64,000 bases of DNA from Rhodococcus erythropolis NBRC 15567 (lineage in GTDB: Bacteria; Actinomycetota; Actinomycetes; Mycobacteriales; Mycobacteriaceae), in contig NZ_BCRM01000005.1 in the NCBI RefSeq assembly GCF_001552595.1, positions 310,001-374,000 on the forward strand, in the 5' to 3' direction. Positions within the stretch are counted from its first letter, which is position 1. Each line of letters opens with the position of its first letter. Positions 6,637 through 20,624 of this stretch are shown piece after piece. The position numbers were made by a program, and so were the translations under genes. Below the pieces are notes generated by a model. That model was given only the letters and a program-made list of their open reading frames with translations, had not been told where the DNA came from and did not search any database.

Positions 6637-7488
6637 TCACGCAGGCTTTGCCGGCCCGCCGACGGCACCGAACACGTGCCGGGTTCCGATCGGAACGATC
6701 AGCGGCCGATCCGAGACGGGATCGTCGATGACCGCAGCTTCGAGACCGAACACCTCGAGCAGAAGTTCCGCGGAAATGATGTCCTTGGGGACACCAGAAG
6801 CGACGACGGCGCCGTCGCGCATCACGATCAGATGATCGCTGTATCTGACCGCGAGATTGAGGTCGTGCAGAACCATCACCACGGTGCGCCCCATTTCCTC
6901 GTGGAGTTGATCCACCAGGTCGAGGACTTCCATCGAGTGCGCGAGGTCCAGATAGGTAGTCGGTTCGTCGAGAAGCAGGATGTCGGTTCCCTGGGCGAGA
7001 GCCATCGAGATCCAGGCTCGCTGACGCTGACCGCCGGACAATTGATCGACGGGCCGATCGGCGAGATCCGAGACACCGGTCAGCTCGAGCGCTTCGGCGA
7101 CCTCGCCCTCGTCGTCCGCGGACCACTGCCTGATCCACGACTGGTGCGGGTGGCGCCCACGTGAGACCAAATCGGCGACGGTGAGCCCTTCCGGCGCAAC
7201 AGGAGTCTGGGGGAGCATTCCGAGCACCCGCGCGACTTCCTTGGTCTTCATCGAACTGATCGCCTTGCCGTCGAGGATGACCGATCCACCCTTTGGCTTG
7301 AGCAGACGACCGAGCGCGCGCAAGAGCGTCGACTTGCCGCAACCGTTGGGTCCGATGACCGTCGTGATCACGCCGGTGGGGATCTCGAGATCGAGTCCGT
7401 CGACGATGATGCGATCCCCGTACCCGAGCGTCAGATTCTGCGCGACGAGACGCGAAGGAGCATCGGTGGACTGGGCGATGGTGGTCAT
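6637..7488 (-). CDS. Iron-siderophore ABC transporter ATP-binding protein (FecE/FepC type)
   Basis: The 283-residue ATPase has Walker A GPNGCGKST, Q-loop GMLPQTP, signature LSGGQRQRAW, Walker B ILLLDEPT and the switch His in VMVLHDLNLA. The N-terminal LTLGYGDRIIVDGLDLEIP is typical of ferric-siderophore/B12 importers. It is the last gene of a three-gene operon; its start codon overlaps the stop of the preceding permease by 4 nt. The upstream iron box indicates induction on iron limitation. No substrate-binding lipoprotein gene is in the window, so the specific siderophore is unknown. Confidence 0.93.
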   Translation of the reverse strand: MTTIAQSTDAPSRLVAQNLTLGYGDRIIVDGLDLEIPTGVITTVIGPNGCGKSTLLRALGRLLKPKGGSVILDGKAISSMKTKEVARVLGMLPQTPVAPEGLTVADLVSRGRHPHQSWIRQWSADDEGEVAEALELTGVSDLADRPVDQLSGGQRQRAWISMALAQGTDILLLDEPTTYLDLAHSMEVLDLVDQLHEEMGRTVVMVLHDLNLAVRYSDHLIVMRDGAVVASGVPKDIISAELLLEVFGLEAAVIDDPVSDRPLIVPIGTRHVFGAVGGPAKPA

Positions 7489-8576
7489 GCTGTGACCTTC
7501 CGATTGTTACGAACCAACAGGTAGAGCAGGAACGGGCCGCCCAGTGCGGAAGTCACGATTCCGACGGGGAGTTCCACAGGCAGAATTGTTCGAGCGATGA
7601 CGTCGCTGCCTACCACCAGTACAGCACCGGTCAGCGCGGAAGCCACGATGGGCGGGCCGGCGGAGCGCACCAGACGCATGGCGACCTGTGGCGCAGCCAG
7701 GGCGACAAAGCCGACCGGACCTGCTGCTGCGGTCGCGATGGCGGCCAGTGCCACGGCGGAAAGCAACAACTTGGCCTGTGATGATTGCAAGCGAACACCG
7801 AGTGAGGTTGCGTTGTCGTCGCCCAACCGCAGTGCTCCCATGGTGAACGATGCGATCACCGCGTAGCCGCCGACTACTGCGACGGCGATTGCGACCGGCC
7901 ACATCTGATTCCAGGTGGCACCGTTGAGTGAACCGTTGAGCCACACCTGTGCGCGAGAAGCGTCGTTGATGTCCGCCGAGATGAGGAGCCATCCCGTCGC
8001 TGCCACCAGCATGGCGTTGATGCCGATACCGATCAGGATGAGGCGGAACCCCTCGACGCCCTTGCGCCACGCCAAGGCGTAGATCACCACTGCTGTCAGT
8101 AGGCCGCCGCAGAGCGCAGCCAACGGAATCCCCAGTGTGGCAAGCAGTCCCACGAACGAGCCACCCCCGCCGAGTACGATGAGTGCCACTGCGGCGGCAC
8201 TCGATCCAGCCGTGATTCCGAGGATGTCGGGGCTGGCGAGGGCATTGCGCGCAATCGTCTGGGTGACCGCACCGGCAATGCCGAGTGCCATACCGATGAA
8301 GAGCGCGGTGAGCGACCGAGGAAGTCGAAGGTCGAAGACGATCAGGTTCTGTGTCTTGCTGCCATTGCCGAGCAGGACCGAAATGACATCGGGGATCGAG
8401 ATCGGATAGTCGCCCCGCCCGATGTTGATGCAAAGCAGAAGGAACAGCGCAACTGCGAGGGCAATGCTCACCGACACCGCGAGTGGGCGGTAGACCAGCG
8501 AGAATCCACCGAGGCGGATCGACTTACGTGAGGGGACGGTCCGGGGGAGTACCCGGAGTTCCTGCTTGAGCGTCAC
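7485..8576 (-). CDS. FecCD-family siderophore ABC transporter permease
   Basis: The 363-residue protein has about ten hydrophobic segments from residue 30 onward and FecCD family signatures: LPRSLTALFIGMALGIAGAV, NALASPDILGI and GPVGFVALAAPQVAMRL, the last being the coupling-helix region that contacts the ATPase. It forms the heterodimeric membrane channel with the permease upstream, overlapping it by 4 nt and the ATPase gene downstream by 4 nt, which points to translational coupling. Confidence 0.93.
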   Translation of the reverse strand: MTLKQELRVLPRTVPSRKSIRLGGFSLVYRPLAVSVSIALAVALFLLLCINIGRGDYPISIPDVISVLLGNGSKTQNLIVFDLRLPRSLTALFIGMALGIAGAVTQTIARNALASPDILGITAGSSAAAVALIVLGGGGSFVGLLATLGIPLAALCGGLLTAVVIYALAWRKGVEGFRLILIGIGINAMLVAATGWLLISADINDASRAQVWLNGSLNGATWNQMWPVAIAVAVVGGYAVIASFTMGALRLGDDNATSLGVRLQSSQAKLLLSAVALAAIATAAAGPVGFVALAAPQVAMRLVRSAGPPIVASALTGAVLVVGSDVIARTILPVELPVGIVTSALGGPFLLYLLVRNNRKVTA

Positions 8577-10039
8577 AGACTTGCCAACTTCCTGCGGCGT
8601 ACGAGAGCGATGAAGAACGGAGCGCCGAACAGGGCCAAGATGATGCCGACCTGCAACTCACCAGGGCGCACGACCACGCGGCCGATGATGTCCGCGGTGA
8701 TCAACATGACCGCGCCGAGTAAGCCCGCGTACGGGACCAGCCAGCGGTAGTCGGGTCCGGTGATGGCCCGGGCCACGTGAGGGACCACCAAACCGATGAA
8801 CGCGATCGGACCACACGCCGCGGTGGCGGCGCCGGTCAGCAGGGTGATCGCGACGATGCCGAGTGTGCGACTGAACGCGATGTTAGTTCCCAGTGCTTTT
8901 GCGACGTCTTCACCCAGGCTGAGGACGTTGAGCCCCGGCGTACTTGCCAAGGCGATGACCAATCCGAGTATCAGGAACGGCAGGACCTGCCAGAGGACGT
9001 CGAACCCGCGACCGGACACCGACCCGACAACCCAGAAACGGTAGGCGTCCAGGCTCGTCTGGTCGAGGATTATCACGGCGTTGGTCATGGCTTGCAGGAA
9101 GAATGCGACGGCCGCGCCCGCCAGAGCCAGACTCAGAGGACTTGCGCCGCCGTTTCCGATGGAAGACAAGCCGAAAACGACGATGCTGGCGACGAAGGAT
9201 CCTGCGAACGCGAACCAGAGGTATTGACTCGGTGCCGTAAAGCCGAAGAGGTAGATCGCCATGACCACGAAGAACGCTGCGCCTGCGTTGAGGCCGAGTA
9301 GACCGGCATCCGCCAACGGGTTGCGCGTGTGTCCCTGAATCAAGGCACCGGCGATACCGAGTGCAATTCCGACAACAAGACCCAAAATCGTTCGTGGGGC
9401 GCGCAACGTCCGCACGATGATGTCCGTTTGAGTTCCGTCCGAATTGAAGAGCGCGTGGAAGATCTCGGCGAACGTCAGTGGACGAGCACCCACTGCGATA
9501 CTCGCGAGCATCACAAGCGCGAGCAGCACGGTGAGGACCGCGAGTCCGATCAGGCGGCGCCGGCGAGTTGCACCGACGCTGTTGTCGCGTGCGAGTTCTT
9601 CGAAGCCCTCGTCGCGGGCCGTGCTTTCTCGGACCACCTCGATGCCGCTTCGGTCGAACGGTCTGCGCAGAGCCCGGCGGACACCGATGGGCTGTTTGGT
9701 GGTCGCGTCACGCGTGACCAGGCCAACCCATCCCTTCCCCGAGGTCCGACCGGTTGCCCCCTCACGGAATCCGAGGTTCCACACAAGGAGACCGACGGCG
9801 ATGGCTATTGCTGTCCCGCCGAAGACTGCTCGATCGGCCTCGCCGCCACCGTTGTCGTCACGGAGCGACTGGACGATGTACCAGCCGACGATCAACGGAA
9901 GTAGGAACACCGCCGCGTCGAAAAGTCCAGCCAGGACACGCATTCGGACAGGAGCGGGGCCGCGCGGCACGATGCGCCGTCCGTACGTCTCGCTGGGTCC
10001 TCGGGGATGTCCGTTCCCGAGAGATTTGATCATCGTCAC
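8573..10039 (-). CDS. FecCD-family permease fused to an N-terminal RDD-like membrane domain
   Basis: The 488-residue protein is about 140 residues longer than a normal FecCD permease. Residues ~165-488 are the permease proper (LRAPRTILGLVVGIALGIAGA, NPLADAGLLGLN, GPIAFIGLVVPHVAR). Residues ~30-130 look like an RDD domain: Arg-x-Leu-Ala-x-x-x-Asp in RVLAGLFDAAV, a second hydrophobic segment, then GRTSGKGWVGLVTRD followed by the basic RRALRRPF. First gene of the importer operon, with an IdeR-type iron box about 45-65 bp upstream. The start could be the GTG at 10039 or the ATG at 10033. What the RDD part adds is unknown. Confidence 0.85.
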   Translation of the reverse strand: MTMIKSLGNGHPRGPSETYGRRIVPRGPAPVRMRVLAGLFDAAVFLLPLIVGWYIVQSLRDDNGGGEADRAVFGGTAIAIAVGLLVWNLGFREGATGRTSGKGWVGLVTRDATTKQPIGVRRALRRPFDRSGIEVVRESTARDEGFEELARDNSVGATRRRRLIGLAVLTVLLALVMLASIAVGARPLTFAEIFHALFNSDGTQTDIIVRTLRAPRTILGLVVGIALGIAGALIQGHTRNPLADAGLLGLNAGAAFFVVMAIYLFGFTAPSQYLWFAFAGSFVASIVVFGLSSIGNGGASPLSLALAGAAVAFFLQAMTNAVIILDQTSLDAYRFWVVGSVSGRGFDVLWQVLPFLILGLVIALASTPGLNVLSLGEDVAKALGTNIAFSRTLGIVAITLLTGAATAACGPIAFIGLVVPHVARAITGPDYRWLVPYAGLLGAVMLITADIIGRVVVRPGELQVGIILALFGAPFFIALVRRRKLASL

Positions 10040-13581: not shown

Positions 13582-13611
13582 TTGACATGCAAGCAAATGC
13601 TTGCATATCGT
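13582..13611 (+). promoter_or_regulatory. Promoter with autoregulatory dyad for the ArsR-SRPBCC gene
   Basis: A consensus -35 TTGACA (13582-13587) and a -10-like TATCGT (13606-13611) bracket a perfect dyad ATGCAAGCA-AA-TGCTTGCAT (13587-13606). Transcription would begin at about 13618, which is the preferred GTG start, so the mRNA may be leaderless. The dyad is a probable operator for the regulator it precedes. Confidence 0.65.
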
Positions 13612-13617
13612 GAAGTT

Positions 13618-14394
13618 GTGAACGACCGGATGAATGCAGCCTTCAAAGCACTTGCCGATCCCACGCGAAGACTTCTGCTGGACCGCCTGTTCGTAGTCAA
13701 CGGGCAGTCGCTCGGTGAGCTGTGCGAGAGCCTCGACATGAGTCGCCAAGCTGTCACGCAACACCTCACGGCGCTCGAGGATGCAAATCTGATCAGCACG
13801 GTACGGCAGGGGAGAACGAAACTTCACTATCTCAATCCCGTTGCGCTCGAGGAGATTCGAGAGCGATGGATCAACAAGTTCGAGGTACCGCGCCTGCATG
13901 CGCTCAGTGCCGTCAAAAAACTCGCGGAGGAAGCCATGACCGACAAGCCCAGTTTTGTATATGTCACCTACATCGCCAGTACGGCCGAGAACGTCTGGAA
14001 AGCACTCACGGACGCGGGGGCCACTGCAGAGTATTGGGGACACAGCAACGTCTCCGACTGGCAGCCGGGATCGACGTGGGAGCACCGCCGGATCGACGGT
14101 TCGAACATCGCGGATGTAGTCGGCACCGTAGTCGAAAGCAGCCCACCGTCGAGGTTGGTCACCACCTGGGCTGATCCGAACGGTGAACCGGGCGTCGATA
14201 TCTCGCGGGTGAGTTTCGACATCGAAGCCTTCGGCGCGATCGTGCGATTGACCGTCAAGCACACCGATTTAGCGGACGAATCGGCTCGCATGGAGGTAGC
14301 GGGCGGATGGTCGGCGGTGCTGTCGAATCTGAAGTCCTACCTCGAGACCGGAAATACTCTTCCGGTGGCGCCGTGGGAGATGCCGGTTGGTTGA
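13618..14394 (+). CDS. ArsR-type winged-helix regulator fused to an SRPBCC (AHSA1-like) domain
   Basis: Residues ~1-95 form an ArsR winged helix: MNAAFKALADPTRRLLLDRL, LGELCESLDMSRQAVTQHLTAL, and the wing LISTVRQGRTKLHYLN. Residues ~110-255 read as an Aha1/START-like ligand-binding fold (IASTAENVWKALTD, FDIEAFGAIVRLTVKH, GGWSAVLSNLKSYLETG). No metal-binding Cys pair of classical ArsR proteins is present, so a hydrophobic small-molecule ligand is more likely. Starts further upstream (TTG 13582) would place coding sequence over the promoter. It probably represses itself through the dyad just upstream; other targets are not evident. Confidence 0.85.
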   Translation: MNDRMNAAFKALADPTRRLLLDRLFVVNGQSLGELCESLDMSRQAVTQHLTALEDANLISTVRQGRTKLHYLNPVALEEIRERWINKFEVPRLHALSAVKKLAEEAMTDKPSFVYVTYIASTAENVWKALTDAGATAEYWGHSNVSDWQPGSTWEHRRIDGSNIADVVGTVVESSPPSRLVTTWADPNGEPGVDISRVSFDIEAFGAIVRLTVKHTDLADESARMEVAGGWSAVLSNLKSYLETGNTLPVAPWEMPVG

Positions 14395-14597: not shown

Positions 14598-15131
14598 ATG
14601 GGCGGCGACGCTTTTCAGAATGTTCCGGTTGATCGACGCAAGTTCGTCAAGACAGTTCTAGCGGCCTCGGCGGTAACTGTTCCGGTCGTGACGTCGATCA
14701 GCCTCGGTGGTGCGGCACCGGCCTTCGCGGCCGGTGACACGCCGAACCTCTCCGGAGCTCCTACTCGAGGCCAGCAGAATCCGAATCAACCAGGAGGCGA
14801 GCAACCAGGCGGGAATCAGCCCGGTGGTAATACTCCGGGAGGGAATCAGCCGGGCGGAAACGAGCCGGGCAACCCCGGATCGTCGGGAAGTTCGGGATCG
14901 TCAGGAAGTTCGGGTAGTTCCGGGAGTTCGGGATCGTCTGGAAGTTCCACAGGTTCCGGATCAACCGGTAGCTCGTCAGGTTCGGGTGGAACGACGACCG
15001 CCAAGCCCACCGGGCCGACGGAGCCGACAGAGCCGACCGTCCCAACTGTCCCAACTGTGCCGACCACTCGCACCGAGCCGACGTTCCCAACCAGCCCGAC
15101 CAAGCCGACAGATCCCACGGAACCTGCGTAA
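14598..15131 (+). CDS. Tat-exported mucin-like Ser/Thr/Pro/Gly repeat protein
   Basis: The 177-residue product begins with a twin-arginine signal (VDRRKFVKT, a hydrophobic stretch, then APAFA-A as a likely cleavage site near residue 44). The mature part is entirely low complexity in three blocks: QPGG/NQPGGN repeats (~residues 57-92), about ten Gly-Ser-Ser repeats (~94-130), and a Thr-Pro tail with PTEPTEPTVPTVPT. There is no globular domain, lipobox, LPXTG or C-terminal membrane helix. Ser/Thr with frequent Pro is the composition of mucin-type O-glycosylated proteins. It is the first gene of the operon that supplies a GalNAc-transferase-like enzyme and an epimerase, so I infer it is their substrate. 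The ATG at 14598 has GGGAG 6 nt upstream. Confidence 0.8.
   Translation: MGGDAFQNVPVDRRKFVKTVLAASAVTVPVVTSISLGGAAPAFAAGDTPNLSGAPTRGQQNPNQPGGEQPGGNQPGGNTPGGNQPGGNEPGNPGSSGSSGSSGSSGSSGSSGSSGSSTGSGSTGSSSGSGGTTTAKPTGPTEPTEPTVPTVPTVPTTRTEPTFPTSPTKPTDPTEPA
14877..14949 (+). repeat. Gly-Ser-Ser codon repeat
   Basis: A 9-nt-periodic tract (GGATCGTCG, GGAAGTTCG variants) encodes a run of Gly-Ser-Ser triplets in the exported repeat protein. Codons alternate TCG/AGT/TCA, so the repeat is kept at the protein level and is not a simple DNA slippage tract. Confidence 0.85.
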
Positions 15132-15176
15132 CCGACGTAATCGATACAACGCCACGGGTTCCCAGGGAGCACACCG

Positions 15177-17264
15177 ATGCCCGAGTTCGACGAAGCCCTG
15201 CACCGCGCTCTGAAGAAGCTTCAGAGCGCGGTGCCAGTACAGGTGAAAGAAACTCCGCCGCACGGAGAATCTGCCGACCTCACCATTGCAATCGCGACCT
15301 ACGACGATTTCGACGGCGCATACTTCACGATCCACTCGATCCTGGTCCATCATCGCGAGATTCTGGACAGAGTCGAATTCGTCTTGTTGGACAACAACCC
15401 CGAGGGGTTGCCGGCGCCGATGCTCGAATCGTTTGCCGGTTACATCGATCGGTTCCGCTACATCCCGTTCACCGACGTTCGATCGACTGCGGTGCGGGAC
15501 GTCCTGTTCCGCAAGGCCACCGGAAAGTATGTCCTGGTCCTCGACTCCCACGTGATCCTGGCACCGGGATCGTTGTCGGCGTTGCTGGCGTATTTCGATG
15601 CAAATCCGGAAACTGACGATCTGATCCAGGGACCGATGCTCTCCCAGGATTCCTCGCACATCGCGGCCACCCACATGGACCCCAAGTGGCGCAACGGAAT
15701 GTTCGGCTCCTGGGGAGTTGATCCGCGAGCGAAGCAACACCCTGACGTGCCTTTCGAGATCATCATGCAGGGCCTCGGCTCATTTGCCTGCAGGCGTGAG
15801 GCGTGGCCGGGATTGAACTCGCACTTCACCGGATTCGGCGGTGAGGAGGGATACATCCACGAGAAGTTCCGGATCAACGGCGGAAAGGTCGTCTGCCTTC
15901 CGACATTTGGTTGGCACCATCGATTCGAGCGCCCGGCGGGTGTCCCGTATCGAATAAATTGGGAAGATCGCGTTCACAATTACCTGCTCGGTTGGAGTGA
16001 GGTCGGATGGGATCTCGACTCACTCCATCGTCAGTTCTCCAGGTACCTCGGTGATTCGTATCCCGAGATTCGTCGCCGTGCCGAACTGAGCGTCCAGCGA
16101 CCCGAGTTGGTCTTCGGCGGGGTGATCGTTCTCAGCGACGACGGCCGAGTAGCTCCGTGGCGTTCATGCCTGGCGGAGGCCGAGTCGATCGAACTGACCG
16201 TTCACCGTGCCATTCCGGCGGAGGACGACGGTCCGGATGGGTGGAGGACGGCCTCAGCGTTCGTCGCCGGACTCGACAAGGCGATTCTGCTGGGCTGGAA
16301 GTCGGTGGTCTTCCTGGACGAGGCTCGCGTGATCGAACCCGCGGTTATGTACAAGCTGCGGAACATAACAGACGACCTCCCCGCCGAAGCCGATGCGGCC
16401 GTCATCCACGCACACGGCGAAGACCTGGTCGGGGCTGCACTGATTGTTCGCGCCGCGGCATACCGAACCTTGCGAGACGAACTCTCTCGGAGCATGGACG
16501 GACCCGTGCGGCCCGACTTTTCACTGGCGACCTATCTGCTCGAGCGGGGCGCAGTCGACGTTGTGCTCGATCGCCCACTGTCGCCTGCCAGAGTAGGGGG
16601 AGAACCCACCCCGGCTGTCGAGGATTCGAAGTCGGACCTCGGTGTTGTCGTCGTGAATCTTGACCTCGATATTGACAGATGGAAGGCGTCCTGGCATCGA
16701 TTCATTCGCTTACCGCGCGTAACAGCGGTGGAGAGAGAATCAGCTTTCGAGGACGTGATGAATCAGGAAGCGGCCTTTGCCGTCTCGTGGCGTCGCGCGG
16801 TTTCTCGGGCGACCGAGAAGAGCAGGGATTCGGTCCTCATTGCAGCTGACGACGTGAGTTTGCTGGATGCGGCTGCGTCGATCCTGGACCACGCACGTGA
16901 AGAGCTCGATCACCGCGATTGGGATGTCGTCCAACTCGGACACGACGCGAAATCGGCCGACGGAGCGCTGATCGACGGTTCGGCGCTCTTGCGCACCAGT
17001 CCCGAGAACCGTGGAGTTCACGCCGTCCTCGTTCATTCGCGCGCCTTCGAGCGAATTCTGGACGCGATTGCGGATCCGGAGGCAGACCCTGAAGCATTCG
17101 AAAAATGGGCGGGCCACTACCAAACTTTGGGCGACTACCTGGTGGATGCGAACGCCGGGGGAGCGCTCACGTGTCTGACGCTCGCACCCGGCATCGCCTC
17201 CACACGCAGCCTGATTCGTTCGGGCGCAATCGAATCCGAATACTCACGACGCTTCTCGCTCTGA
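15177..17264 (+). CDS. Multidomain glycosyltransferase: GalNAc-T-like (GT27/GT2) N-terminus and GT25-like C-terminus
   Basis: The 695-residue enzyme has no signal peptide or membrane helix and should act in the cytoplasm. Residues ~25-290 are a GT-A fold: LTIAIATYDDFDGAYFTI, VLLDNNPEG, and a metal-binding DxH (Asp123-Ser124-His125 in VLVLDSHVILAPG), the form used by polypeptide GalNAc-transferases, not the DxD of most GT2 enzymes. FGGEEGYIHEKF (220-231) and the downstream GWHHRF (His247/248) also fit that family. Residues ~310-475 and ~490-690 both resemble GT25 enzymes; the second reads VVVNLDLDIDRW (Asn494), IAADD (Asp558/559, in place of LEDD) and WDVVQLG. The first GT25-like copy looks degenerate. 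It lies 45 nt after the repeat-protein gene. Sugar and acceptor are inferred. Confidence 0.7.
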   Translation: MPEFDEALHRALKKLQSAVPVQVKETPPHGESADLTIAIATYDDFDGAYFTIHSILVHHREILDRVEFVLLDNNPEGLPAPMLESFAGYIDRFRYIPFTDVRSTAVRDVLFRKATGKYVLVLDSHVILAPGSLSALLAYFDANPETDDLIQGPMLSQDSSHIAATHMDPKWRNGMFGSWGVDPRAKQHPDVPFEIIMQGLGSFACRREAWPGLNSHFTGFGGEEGYIHEKFRINGGKVVCLPTFGWHHRFERPAGVPYRINWEDRVHNYLLGWSEVGWDLDSLHRQFSRYLGDSYPEIRRRAELSVQRPELVFGGVIVLSDDGRVAPWRSCLAEAESIELTVHRAIPAEDDGPDGWRTASAFVAGLDKAILLGWKSVVFLDEARVIEPAVMYKLRNITDDLPAEADAAVIHAHGEDLVGAALIVRAAAYRTLRDELSRSMDGPVRPDFSLATYLLERGAVDVVLDRPLSPARVGGEPTPAVEDSKSDLGVVVVNLDLDIDRWKASWHRFIRLPRVTAVERESAFEDVMNQEAAFAVSWRRAVSRATEKSRDSVLIAADDVSLLDAAASILDHAREELDHRDWDVVQLGHDAKSADGALIDGSALLRTSPENRGVHAVLVHSRAFERILDAIADPEADPEAFEKWAGHYQTLGDYLVDANAGGALTCLTLAPGIASTRSLIRSGAIESEYSRRFSL
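15200..15234 (+). other. Perfect 16-bp hairpin inside the glycosyltransferase 5' coding region
   Basis: GCACCGCGCTCTGAAG and its exact complement are separated by AAG, at codons 8-20 of the glycosyltransferase gene. No U-tract follows, so it is not a standard terminator. It could stop 3'-5' decay and stabilise the upstream repeat-protein mRNA, or slow translation of the enzyme. Confidence 0.7.
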
Positions 17265-17325
17265 CACCACCCCCAACACATATAGCTCAACACGAATATC
17301 GGACTCGTTGGAACAAGGAGATATC

Positions 17326-17598
17326 TTGACGGAACTACTCGAAGACGCGAGGCCTCAGCGCTCACAGACGGTGGAGAGCAATGATCTCACCGACGGTGTC
17401 GTGCTGTACGACAGTTCCAGCGAGGTTGCCCATCACCTCAACCCCGTCGCGACTTTGGTGTGGGAACTGTGTGACGGCCGGACCGTCAGTGACATTGTCC
17501 AGGCGGTGTCGGAGGTGCTCGAGATCCCTGACCATGACGCGGAGTCGGTAGTCAGCGAGACCTATGGACAGCTGAGCGCCTCGCGTCTGCTGGTGTGA
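17326..17598 (+). CDS. PqqD-like peptide-binding (RRE) protein
   Basis: The 90-residue protein matches PqqD-family length and pattern: DGVVLYDSSSEVAHHLNPVATLVWELCDG, then TVSDIVQAVSEVLEI and a C-terminal helix with LSASRLLV. PqqD domains are winged-helix folds that hold leader peptides for modifying enzymes in PQQ, lasso and other RiPP pathways. The TTG at 17326 is chosen because AAGGAG lies 5 nt before it. The kinase-like gene starts 7 nt after its stop. No radical-SAM or cyclase partner is nearby, so which peptide it binds is open; the N-terminus of the repeat protein is one candidate. Confidence 0.8.
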   Translation: MTELLEDARPQRSQTVESNDLTDGVVLYDSSSEVAHHLNPVATLVWELCDGRTVSDIVQAVSEVLEIPDHDAESVVSETYGQLSASRLLV

Positions 17599-17605
17599 GA
17601 ATCCC

Positions 17606-18484
17606 GTGACAGGCAGCCATGTACCACAATTCCGAACGCACTACCTGTGGGTTGATGCGATCGTGCGCGGCCCTGCCATACCCGAACTCGGTGTCATCGA
17701 GCATCGAATTGCCAGCCCCTGGCCCGCGGACCACAACGTCGAAGTTCGGATTCAGCGGAATCGATCGACGTTCGGTCGCTGGGACGCCACCATCGACTCG
17801 AGCATCGGAGGCAGAAAGGAACCGCTGATCGGTCTCGACGGACTCCACCTCGCGGAGAACGTTTACCGCACTGTGCACCGGGATGTCATGACGGCCGCAG
17901 ATAACGAACTGTGGACACGCCTGCATGCCGCTCTGGTCGACTGCAACGGTGTGAGAGTGGCGATCGCCGGGCACTCCGGGGCGGGTAAAACCACCTTGGC
18001 GCTTGCCCTTGCCTTACGGGGTGCACAACTGCGAGCTGACGAAGGGGTCTTCATTCGCGGTACCGAAGCGGTGGGCTTGCCGCGCCGGGTCCACCTCAAA
18101 GCCGGTACGTTCGACGTTCTGCCGGACATCAAGGCGCACGATTCGCTGTATCTCCCGTATACCCCTTCGGTGTGGGCACTGGACCCGTCGACATTGCCCG
18201 CTACTCCCAACGTCGATTCGGCGGTTCGCGGAATCGATCTGGTGCTGATTCTCGATAAATGGGACGGGGGTCCTACTCGTATCGCGCCGATGCCCGCACC
18301 CCAGGCGATACAGTCGCTGGCCGAGCAATCCGCGTTGTGGTCCGACAATCACGGTCTGACCCTGAGAAACATCGCTGCCCTGCTCTCGAATGCCCCGTGC
18401 TACAGAATGATCCGGCACCACGGCGACACCGGCGCCGACACCGTGGAGGAACTGGTGGCGTCATGCGTGACACCCGGTACCTGA
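17606..18484 (+). CDS. HPr kinase-like P-loop kinase
   Basis: The 292-residue protein has Walker A GHSGAGKTT (residues 122-130) followed by LALALALRGAQLRADEGVFI, where the DEG acidic turn fits the HPr kinase/phosphorylase C-terminal fold. The N-terminal 110 residues replace the usual HPrK sensor domain. Such stand-alone HprK-like proteins accompany PqqD and NTP_transf_5 proteins in RiPP clusters such as paeninodin-type lasso peptides, where the kinase phosphorylates a peptide Ser. A Ser-rich exported protein heads this operon. The GTG start has only a weak ribosome binding site, and translation is probably coupled to the PqqD gene. Confidence 0.75.
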   Translation: MTGSHVPQFRTHYLWVDAIVRGPAIPELGVIEHRIASPWPADHNVEVRIQRNRSTFGRWDATIDSSIGGRKEPLIGLDGLHLAENVYRTVHRDVMTAADNELWTRLHAALVDCNGVRVAIAGHSGAGKTTLALALALRGAQLRADEGVFIRGTEAVGLPRRVHLKAGTFDVLPDIKAHDSLYLPYTPSVWALDPSTLPATPNVDSAVRGIDLVLILDKWDGGPTRIAPMPAPQAIQSLAEQSALWSDNHGLTLRNIAALLSNAPCYRMIRHHGDTGADTVEELVASCVTPGT

Positions 18485-19593
18485 TTTCGATGTTGGAAGC
18501 CAAGCACGGGGCCGACGTCATCCGTTCGTGTTCGCAGCGGGATTGGCCGCGAGTCATCGACGTCGCCGCCAGGCACAAGGTGCTGCCGCTGCTGGCCGCC
18601 CGCGCAGTCGATGCCGGCTTCGCATCGGTCCCGCCGGCGAGTTTCGCCGAAATGCTGTCGGAATCCGCAGCTAGCGCGTCGAGTCCGGAATTGACGCTGA
18701 GCCTTGTCCATCACCGAAACGCGCTTCGTATCGCGGACCTCGATGCGCAGCGCGTAGAACTGCAAGAGTTGTTACACAGCAGCGGATTTCCGACTGTCGC
18801 GCTGAAAGGTGCTGCCCTTCTCGAGCGAAGAATCTGGCCGAACCCGGCGGCACGACGGATGACGGACATCGACCTCTTGGTCGTAGATCCCGCACACGCC
18901 GTTCCAGCCAACGACGCGATCATCGACTTCGGCTATCGAATGGTTCGCGCGGACGAGGTGGCAGGGGATTCCATCGATCACGACGATCATCAGGAACCAG
19001 CGCTCCTTCGCGACGACCGTCACGGCTCCGTCGAAATCCATTCGCACTTGCTTCCGCGGTTCGCCCGTCACGCGTTGACCCGCGAGTCCGTGGTCCGAGG
19101 ACTCAGCGCGGAGACCGAAGGATCCAGGCTTGCCCTTTCCGATGTCACGCTTCATGTCATCGCTCACGCGCGGCTTGCCGATCGCGCCTTGATTCGCGCC
19201 GATCTGGCGTTGAACAGCGTCTTCGACGTGGGGTACCTGTTCACCTCCGAGCCGTCACTCCCGGCGATGCTCGCGCGACGCCGATTGCCACGCGATGTCC
19301 GTCGGGCGGTGAACGTCCACTGGGCTGCGGTGGAATCGATCTTCGGAGTGAGTACCGGGGTGACGACCACCTCGGCGCGTTGGTGGTGGCAATGCACGCT
19401 GTGGTTGGCCGATCGCCCACGCCTGCACTCGCTCTACCGCGATCTGGTCATGGTGCCGCTCTTTCTCGACCGTGATCGGCTTTCCATCCGGGACGGGCGC
19501 GACCTACGTGGATGGGACTTGGCACGCGCACGCGTATCCCACTTCGTCCGTCGTGCGAGGACTGCCGTCGAAGATGCCGGGGGAGCAGCGTGA
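18463..19593 (+). CDS. NTP_transf_5-family nucleotidyltransferase-like protein
   Basis: The 376-residue protein carries the family core: an LKG motif (residues 114-116 in VALKGAALLERRIW) and a catalytic-type MTDIDLLV (133-140), where the two Asp residues match the metal-binding pair of the nucleotidyltransferase fold. A later Glu-x-His (VEIHSHLLPR) fits too. Members occur beside PqqD and HprK-like genes, and in pseudomycoidin-type lasso clusters such a protein has been linked to sugar addition on the phosphorylated peptide. The ATG at 18463 lies inside the end of the kinase gene (22-nt overlap). Substrate here is unknown. Confidence 0.75.
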   Translation: MRDTRYLISMLEAKHGADVIRSCSQRDWPRVIDVAARHKVLPLLAARAVDAGFASVPPASFAEMLSESAASASSPELTLSLVHHRNALRIADLDAQRVELQELLHSSGFPTVALKGAALLERRIWPNPAARRMTDIDLLVVDPAHAVPANDAIIDFGYRMVRADEVAGDSIDHDDHQEPALLRDDRHGSVEIHSHLLPRFARHALTRESVVRGLSAETEGSRLALSDVTLHVIAHARLADRALIRADLALNSVFDVGYLFTSEPSLPAMLARRRLPRDVRRAVNVHWAAVESIFGVSTGVTTTSARWWWQCTLWLADRPRLHSLYRDLVMVPLFLDRDRLSIRDGRDLRGWDLARARVSHFVRRARTAVEDAGGAA

Positions 19594-20624
19594 AAGTACT
19601 GATCACCGGCGGAGCGGGATTCATCGGAAGCACCGTGGCGTCGAAGTGCGTCGACGCCGGGATCGATGTCGTGATTCTCGACAACCTGCTGACCGGCCGT
19701 GCCGAATTTGCGCAGAGATTCCCGTTCTACCGCGGCGACATCGCGGACGAGAAACTGCTCGACAAGATATTCGCAGATCATCCCGATATCGATGCCACAG
19801 TTCACTGTGCGGCCTTGATCGTGGTCGGAGATTCCGTGAGTAGCCCGGCGCGGTACTACGAGAACAACGTATCCAAGTCACTGACGCTGGTATCGAGTGT
19901 CCTTCGGAACGGGTGTGAGCGCCTCTTGTTCAGTTCCTCTGCTGCGGTGTACGCGCCGAGCGACGGTGGGTGTGTCGACGAACATTGGCGGATCGCACCG
20001 CAGAGTCCCTACGCGCACAGCAAGGCTCAGTTCGAAACGATGCTTGACGACATCGTGGCGGCCACAGGATTATCGGCGATATCTCTACGCTACTTCAACC
20101 CTGTCGGGGCAGACCCGGAGCTGCGAAGCGGAACAGCGTCGGCACGCCCGACCCACGCACTCGGAAAGCTGTTCGAATCATATTCGGCAGGAATACCTTT
20201 CAGGATTACGGGGACGGATTGGCCGACGCGCGACGGATCGGGTGTGCGTGATTACGTTCATGTCTGGGACCTTGCAGACGCTCATGTTCGAGCACTCGAA
20301 AGGTTCGACCGGGTCACCGCTGATTCATCACGCATGACTGTGGTCAACTTGGGCAGCGGGCGGGGGACGACGGTGTGGGAATTGGTACACACATTCGAGA
20401 ACGTGCTCGGCGAAGAAATCGACGTGGTCGTTGCCGACCGACGCACCGGTGACACTGCCGGCGCCTACGCGTCGAACGATCGTGCGTTACGACTACTCGG
20501 ATGGGTTCCGACGTTCACCCTGGAACAGGGGATCGAGGACACTGCACGGTGGCTGGCCGTACGGGCGCACCTGCTGAATTCTGCGCCGCTGAGCGTCAGC
20601 TTGGTGGCTCGCCCTCGACGGTGA
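19590..20624 (+). CDS. UDP-hexose 4-epimerase (GalE-like SDR)
   Basis: The 344-residue protein is an extended short-chain dehydrogenase with NAD-binding GGAGFIG at residues 6-12, active-site Ser region LLFSSSAAVYAPS and catalytic YAHSK. The substrate-side signature LRYFNPVGADP is typical of UDP-glucose/UDP-GlcNAc 4-epimerases. It would produce UDP-galactose or UDP-GalNAc. The GTG start overlaps the preceding stop codon (GTGA), so it is translationally coupled and belongs to the glycosyltransferase operon. This supports a galactose-type sugar donor for the transferase. Which N-acetyl state it accepts cannot be read safely. Confidence 0.88.
   Translation: MKVLITGGAGFIGSTVASKCVDAGIDVVILDNLLTGRAEFAQRFPFYRGDIADEKLLDKIFADHPDIDATVHCAALIVVGDSVSSPARYYENNVSKSLTLVSSVLRNGCERLLFSSSAAVYAPSDGGCVDEHWRIAPQSPYAHSKAQFETMLDDIVAATGLSAISLRYFNPVGADPELRSGTASARPTHALGKLFESYSAGIPFRITGTDWPTRDGSGVRDYVHVWDLADAHVRALERFDRVTADSSRMTVVNLGSGRGTTVWELVHTFENVLGEEIDVVVADRRTGDTAGAYASNDRALRLLGWVPTFTLEQGIEDTARWLAVRAHLLNSAPLSVSLVARPRR

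Follow-up and report, generated by a model that had tools for sequence, protein, structure and literature searches.

A Rhodococcus operon that suggests a bacterial route to glycosylated, Tat-exported repeat proteins

In a 64,000-nucleotide stretch of the genome of Rhodococcus erythropolis NBRC 15567 (contig NZ_BCRM01000005.1, positions 310,001 to 374,000; this whole stretch is the window, to which coordinates without a locus label refer), six closely packed genes on the + strand, A to F (14598-20624), bring together a repeat protein with a signal for twin-arginine translocation (Tat) and a set of predicted modifying enzymes. We hold with moderate confidence that the repeat protein A is glycosylated, and probably phospho-tailored, in the cytoplasm and is then exported by the Tat pathway; the substrate, the sugar, the order of the steps, the export and the role of the product are what we infer. 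The operon suggests an undescribed bacterial route to sugar-coated surface proteins. By their coordinates, A and B are separated by 45 bp, B and C by 43 bp and C and D by 7 bp, while D and E overlap by 22 bp and E and F by 4 bp. An earlier note on this DNA had described a tight operon of a Tat-exported Ser/Thr/Pro/Gly repeat protein, a transferase with DxH and FGGEE motifs and a 4-epimerase; all of this is confirmed.

The glycosyltransferase (GT) B (15177-17264, +; 695 amino acids) has at least two GT-related domains. The N-terminal domain (residues 32-311; 15270-16109, +) is predicted to adopt a GT-A fold, and the solved structures closest to its AlphaFold model (mcc8ef5798c8e), by Foldseek and VIA-align ranking, are the GT27 polypeptide N-acetylgalactosamine (GalNAc)-transferases. 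The earlier note had likened B to these enzymes and proposed a structure prediction against GT27; that comparison places the domain nearest to GT27 and not, as would have spoken against the idea, nearest to polysaccharide synthases. The motifs are LDSH at 122-125 and FGGEE at 220-224: across 18 aligned sequences D123-S124-H125, F220-GGE223-E224, W246 and H248-R-F are invariant, and we take H248 to be the equivalent of the third metal-binding His of GT27. In a PDB profile search the DxH and FGGE of B align to the DAH and WGGEN of 6s22 with an E-value of 0.35. Relatives outside Rhodococcus lack the middle part of B (about residues 312-484), which is modelled with low confidence. The C-terminal domain (residues about 485-695; 16629-17261, +) is related to GT25 (collagen galactosyltransferase), the fold and profile match being reached via homology to other members of the family; this GT25/COLGALT-like second domain also belongs to a protein-glycosylating family. 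Its LEDD metal motif is replaced by AADD in the B of the window and by AADN at L007 and L008; the motif is kept in seven of the eight non-Rhodococcus sequences covering it, the exception being the first GT25-like region of L024. Because the LEDD of most relatives reads AADD or AADN in Rhodococcus, the C-terminal domain of B is probably eroded. No signal peptide is seen on B, and it is therefore presumably cytoplasmic.

The proposed substrate A (14598-15131, +; 177 amino acids from the ATG at 14598) begins with MGGDAFQNVPVDRRKFVKTVLAASAVTVPVVTSISLGGAAPAFA, followed by AGD and then by PGGN, SSG and T-x-P repeats. Its signal peptide (14598-14729, +; cleavage placed by eye) has the features of a Tat signal as read from the sequence: the twin-arginine (RR) motif DRRKFVK, a hydrophobic stretch with a VTVPVVTSIS motif, and AFA as the A-x-A site. 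The repeats comprise a Ser-Ser-Gly block found by Tandem Repeats Finder (14877-14959, +) and a Thr-x-Pro tail (14991-15128, +). Mature A, counted from GDTP, has 132 residues, of which 46 are Ser or Thr (18% and 17%); Pro makes up 17% and Gly 22%. Residues 1-57 are 86% identical in the versions of A at L011-L013, whereas the repeats diverge in type and number; the version at L014 lacks the SSG block and has a longer T-x-P tail. When the signal region was used as a profile on its own genome, A, itself one row of that profile, was the sole clear match (E 8.2e-20; next 0.17). A is probably secreted.

Three of the remaining genes form a trio that recurs in other settings. The first, C (17308-17598, +; 96 amino acids from a TTG start), codes for a peptide-binding protein of the PqqD family (PF05402 8.7e-12, above cut-off), resembling the recognition element (RRE) of ribosomally synthesized and post-translationally modified peptides (RiPPs). 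The second, D (17606-18484, +; 292 amino acids from a GTG start), is an HPr-kinase-like kinase, in which the P-loop GHSGAGKTT and D145-E146 are invariant in eight sequences. The third, E (18463-19593, +), is a nucleotidyltransferase of the NTP_transf_5 family (PF14907 2.4e-25, above cut-off) with the motif RMTD133-I-D135 (numbering from 18469), whose M-T-D-I-D is invariant in eight sequences. The HPr-rel-A system (TIGR04352, TIGR04353) was considered for this pair of C and D and rejected: D scores 44 bits versus a cut-off of 200, and C 22.4 versus 35. The last gene, F (19590-20624, +; 344 amino acids from a GTG start), is a UDP-sugar 4-epimerase, GalE (TIGR01179 312 bits versus a cut-off of 262.3; match to 3enk at 1.5e-60). 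In its region RRTGDTAG-A-YAS an Ala is aligned with a Cys of 3enk, and GDTAGAYA is common to all six operon-adjacent GalE proteins. This Ala is the putative gatekeeper residue; we take its register to be that of E. coli Tyr299. The rule of a small residue at the gatekeeper (E. coli Tyr299 position) comes from PMC5349592, and Ala is not among the residues named in the part of that paper available. The putative gatekeeper Ala in the six neighbouring GalE proteins fits UDP-GalNAc production, one of the two products that the earlier note had proposed for the epimerase (UDP-Gal or UDP-GalNAc).

From this anatomy, and from accounts of related systems (PMC8498205; PMC12710340), a mechanism may be sketched in which C reads the signal, B starts the O-glycans, D and E supply a phosphate and a sugar, and the product leaves through Tat. 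Specifically, C would hold or deliver A in the cytoplasm, probably by binding its signal region, which is unusual and conserved; B, through its GT27-like domain, would then move a sugar onto the many Ser and Thr residues of the T-x-P and SSG repeats. This sugar would most likely be GalNAc or Gal, supplied as the UDP-sugar by F. D and E would add a modification of the phospho-sugar type, like their relatives acting on lasso peptides, and the finished A would leave via Tat, outside possibly serving as a mucin-like or linker polymer.

The arrangement is conserved within the genus: B is present in eight of 25 Rhodococcus genomes, including the source genome, and the order A-B-C-D-E is kept in all eight, so the arrangement is non-random. 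Rhodococcus sp. P-2, IEGM 1379, ARC_M6 and R. globerulus carry B at 70-90% identity. The earlier note had proposed to look for the gene order in other Actinobacteria; similar partners recur in Acidimicrobiia and Alphaproteobacteria. B is found in none of the 16 genomes from other genera of the order. A scan of a genome collection, together with sampled searches of the Oricola phylum (349 genomes) and of Acidimicrobiia (296), uncovered the GT domain of B at ten distinct loci outside Rhodococcus, in Acidimicrobiia, Alphaproteobacteria and Binatia (L020-L025, L045 and L051-L053). One of the 11 loci of the scan, L026 from Caulobacter, was set aside as an ordinary GT2 enzyme, its match being limited to residues 30-156 (E 5e-6). 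The domain is rare, since few genomes matched in the wide searches: one of 396 (the source genome itself), one of 349 in the Oricola phylum (the genome of origin, with two copies) and three of 296 in Acidimicrobiia (the genome of origin and two new ones).

At eight of these ten loci a PqqD domain accompanies, or is fused to, a Thr-rich protein that carries a signal or a segment resembling one, and five have an HPr-like kinase and NTP_transf_5. All four partners, namely PqqD, kinase, Tat-type Thr-rich protein and NTP_transf_5, are present in the metagenome-assembled Acidimicrobiia genomes at L020, L021 and L022. Oricola has two cassettes (L023 and L045), both with the kinase fused to the transferase and with Thr-rich Tat-type proteins, PqqD and NTP_transf_5 alongside; the Thr-rich proteins of L023 are three tandem paralogues, and the Tat-type protein of L045 exceeds the cut-off of the curated Tat model TIGR01409. 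At L051, L052 and L053 a single frame combines a PqqD domain, an RR-hydrophobic segment and Thr/Pro repeats, and a sulfotransferase gene adjoins it (by Pfam at L051, by eye at the other two). No Thr-rich signal-bearing protein was found at L024 (Binatia, on a 3.5 kb contig) and L025 (Rhizobiales, at a contig edge). Ahead of the GT domain of the latter (L025:1003-2784, +), a stretch of 300 residues resembles by eye an HPr-type kinase that has lost its P-loop, with no profile match.

The association is also recovered from the side of the signal. A profile built from nine signal regions and searched in 218 Acidimicrobiia genomes matched 79 of them at E 0.05. We examined 20 matched regions (12 short-frame and 8 long-frame matches) with local profiles at E 1e-3: as these profiles were built from the same source cassettes, the counts of PqqD at nine, the kinase at six, the nucleotidyltransferase at four, any of them at ten and none at ten are to be read with that in mind. 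Any trio gene was seen at eight of the 12 short-frame versus two of the eight long-frame matches. PqqD lies near all six of the best non-source matches versus three of the other 14 (Fisher p 0.002), although the rows of the signal profile come from proteins beside such genes, so that the highest-ranking matches may owe their place to close kinship with the source cassettes. The other 14 are mostly ordinary Tat proteins. In 20 control regions, taken at arbitrary places in 12 of the 19 test-region genomes (240,018 bases versus 208,077 test bases), PqqD occurs in none versus nine of 20 (Fisher p 0.0012; best six versus controls 4e-6). Contigs end about 1100, 81 and 19 bases away on one side of L161, L162 and L166, and L166, L167, L170 and L172 resemble a single lipoprotein family. 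A regular-expression test of 796,111 bases gave 12 matches, all near trio genes; it is illustrative only, because the loci overlap, the expression was shaped on known cases and the true cases at L011-L013, L022 and L045 were missed.

These searches yielded further related arrangements. L160 has another PqqD-signal-repeat fusion (PF05402 5.3e-4, under cut-off). At L156, L157 and L159 a SunS-related transferase adjoins the Tat repeat protein (TIGR04195 9.9e-24, 7.3e-14 and 1e-16, all below cut-off), and the one tested, that of L157, matches GmaR (1.3e-18), a flagellin glycosyltransferase; both relatives are enzymes that glycosylate peptides or proteins. These SunS-related genes occupy the place of B, which is of another family. 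Two side observations come from these loci: a Tat protein near PqqD and beside the SunS-like transferase has PNQYQ instead of Ser/Thr repeats (L156:5844-6266, +), and one frame near a Tat repeat protein combines an NTP_transf_5 domain (local profile) with a TauD-like dioxygenase (L157:2727-4787, -). The trio is also found next to Tat proteins at loci with a transferase of a different family or with no transferase seen.

The set of signal, PqqD, kinase and nucleotidyltransferase recurs with a transferase that can be exchanged, so the boundary drawn by the earlier note, an actinobacterial mucin operon, proved too narrow: C, D and E, of which it made no mention, belong to the system. We also put forward a broader proposal, though only tentatively. 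The system would make a new class of exported phosphoglycoproteins in a RiPP-like manner, with the Tat signal serving as the leader read by the PqqD-type protein through a motif x-P-V/I-V/I in its hydrophobic part. This would recruit the kinase, the nucleotidyltransferase and the exchangeable glycosyltransferase, GT27-like or GmaR/SunS-like, which would coat the repeat domains; as Tat export follows completed synthesis, decoration in the cytoplasm would be possible. Within this class, Rhodococcus would have a bacterial equivalent of the O-glycosylation of mucins.

Several observations weigh against the cytoplasmic glycosylation and Tat export of A. In the profile search the matches of B to GT27 entries of the PDB are non-significant (E 0.35 to 1), the Pfam match is to the generic PF00535 (4.9e-11), no ricin-type lectin domain is matched by Pfam at E 1, and the top PDB sequence matches are TarP and chondroitin synthase, so that sequence search alone would class B among the GT2 polysaccharide enzymes. 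TIGR01409 has no match to A at E 1. D falls under the HPr-kinase cut-offs (PF07475 3.1e-7; TIGR04352 1.5e-11), and the kinase of lasso clusters acts on a C-terminal Ser, yet A ends in T-E-P-A. GalE adjoins the operon in six of the eight Rhodococcus genomes and is missing beside it in two. At L051-L053 the RR segment is internal, behind PqqD, which is unusual for Tat, and it may be a membrane anchor; these contigs of 3.5 to 6.9 kb showed neither the HPr-like kinase nor NTP_transf_5.

The trio, moreover, occurs without a repeat substrate. NTP_transf_5 is present in 64 of 246 sampled Actinomycetota genomes; at the best 40 of 76 match rows, with the row of the source genome left out, NTP_transf_5 is seen at 39, the kinase at 20 and PqqD at 17 (E 0.01). 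All three occur at 11 of the 40 (six at E 0.001), of which L120 and L121 alone have a Tat protein. A loose RR filter over these loci returned 15 frames at 14 loci: by eye, only those of L120 and L121 are Tat proteins with the P-V/I motif, and the other 13 resemble antisense, membrane or unrelated frames. The trio thus has other jobs and need not act on A, so that its action on A is something we infer. The small Tat proteins of L120 (7071-7382) and L121 (5838-6155) have a W-x-x-P-V-I signal and a Cys-rich mature part, knottin-like by eye; inside PqqD-kinase-NTP_transf_5 loci they are a possible second type of substrate. A third such Tat protein stands beside the trio at L050 in Ilumatobacter.

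Among the alternatives, it could be that B, D, E and F form a small pathway for a cell-surface polysaccharide or glycolipid, with A as a secreted spacer or matrix protein that stays unmodified and shares the operon by chance. The TarP and chondroitin synthase matches of B speak for this, and most of the best 40 NTP_transf_5 loci of Actinomycetota do lack a Tat repeat protein; the GT27-like fold of the N-terminal domain points the other way, and we regard this explanation as unlikely. Also improbable, to our mind, is that A is a RiPP-like precursor chiefly phosphorylated and phospho-glycosylated by D and E, in which B would extend or decorate the phosphosugar instead of starting Ser/Thr O-glycosylation, and part of A would later be cut off as a peptide. 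In favour of this, the trio is the set that tailors phosphoglycosylated lasso peptides, and its Tat neighbours at L120 and L121 are rich in Cys and lack Ser/Thr repeats; but a protease, a cyclase and an ATP-binding cassette (ABC) exporter are all absent among the six genes, and A has long repeats with no conserved core peptide beyond the GDTPNLSG segment. That A is merely a flexible, disordered secreted protein, with the enzymes aimed at other cell components, appeals to the ease with which low-complexity tails evolve and is very hard to credit given the recurring neighbourhood, the fusions and the PqqD neighbours of the best relatives of its signal region.

Cytoplasmic glycosylation followed by Tat export, the reading we prefer, touches several known systems. 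From the mucin-type O-glycosylation of animals and Toxoplasma by GT27 enzymes it differs, beyond the sequence and the lectin domain, in that B is presumably cytoplasmic and adjoins PqqD, a kinase and a nucleotidyltransferase. In serine-rich repeat glycoproteins, GtfA and GtfB O-glycosylate a Ser-rich repeat protein in the cytoplasm before export by the accessory Sec system; there the export is not by Tat, GtfA/B are not GT27-like, and no PqqD or kinase is known to take part. According to PMC8498205, PqqD-like B1 proteins bind the lasso leader, homologues of HPr kinase place a phosphate on the Ser at the C-terminus of the lasso precursor, and in pseudomycoidin a nucleotidyltransferase then attaches one or two hexoses to this phosphopeptide. 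Phosphoglycosylated lasso peptides such as paeninodin and pseudomycoidin share with the operon a PqqD-type leader binder, an HPr-kinase homologue and a nucleotidyltransferase, and sulfotransferase genes occur in both settings (here at L051); the substrate of the operon, however, is a long Tat-signal repeat protein, and the GT27-like transferase and GalE are additional. An actual lasso cluster was rejected, as the protease B2 and the cyclase C are absent from the six operon genes and the three flanking genes tested. RREs have also been paired with Sec-signal precursors, as in the DUF2282 precursors and DUF2063 RREs (PMC12710340). These exported RiPPs are alike in having an RRE-type protein and a precursor with an export signal; in the operon, Tat takes the place of Sec and PqqD that of DUF2063, and the modifying enzymes are a kinase, a nucleotidyltransferase and a glycosyltransferase.

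The literature, searched mostly without subscription journals, gave no account of a PqqD protein, kinase and nucleotidyltransferase that together modify a repeat protein exported by Tat, nor of a GT27-like bacterial enzyme that glycosylates proteins and is encoded in an operon of this kind, which is weak evidence of novelty. If true, our reading would link three so far separate fields, namely the tailoring of RiPPs (by PqqD, kinase and nucleotidyltransferase), export through Tat, and the O-glycosylation of proteins in the manner of mucins, and would give part of the PqqD-kinase-nucleotidyltransferase cassettes a testable role. It would also provide a bacterial, cytoplasmic and genetically tractable fold relative of the polypeptide GalNAc-transferases, of use in glycoprotein engineering and with a bearing on the origin of GT27 enzymes.

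In promoter and terminator scans nothing clearly exceeded shuffled sequences. Directly upstream of the operon lies an ArsR-type regulator fused with an AHSA1/SRPBCC domain (13582-14394, +), relatives of which stand at the opposite flank of the operon at L012-L015. Farther off in the window, one frame combines a siderophore-type FecCD permease (PF01032) with an RDD domain (PF06271) (8573-10039, -); another FecCD gene comes next after it (7485-8576). At 25024-51615 (-) there is a single open frame of 8863 codons, which from its size is probably a giant non-ribosomal peptide synthetase.

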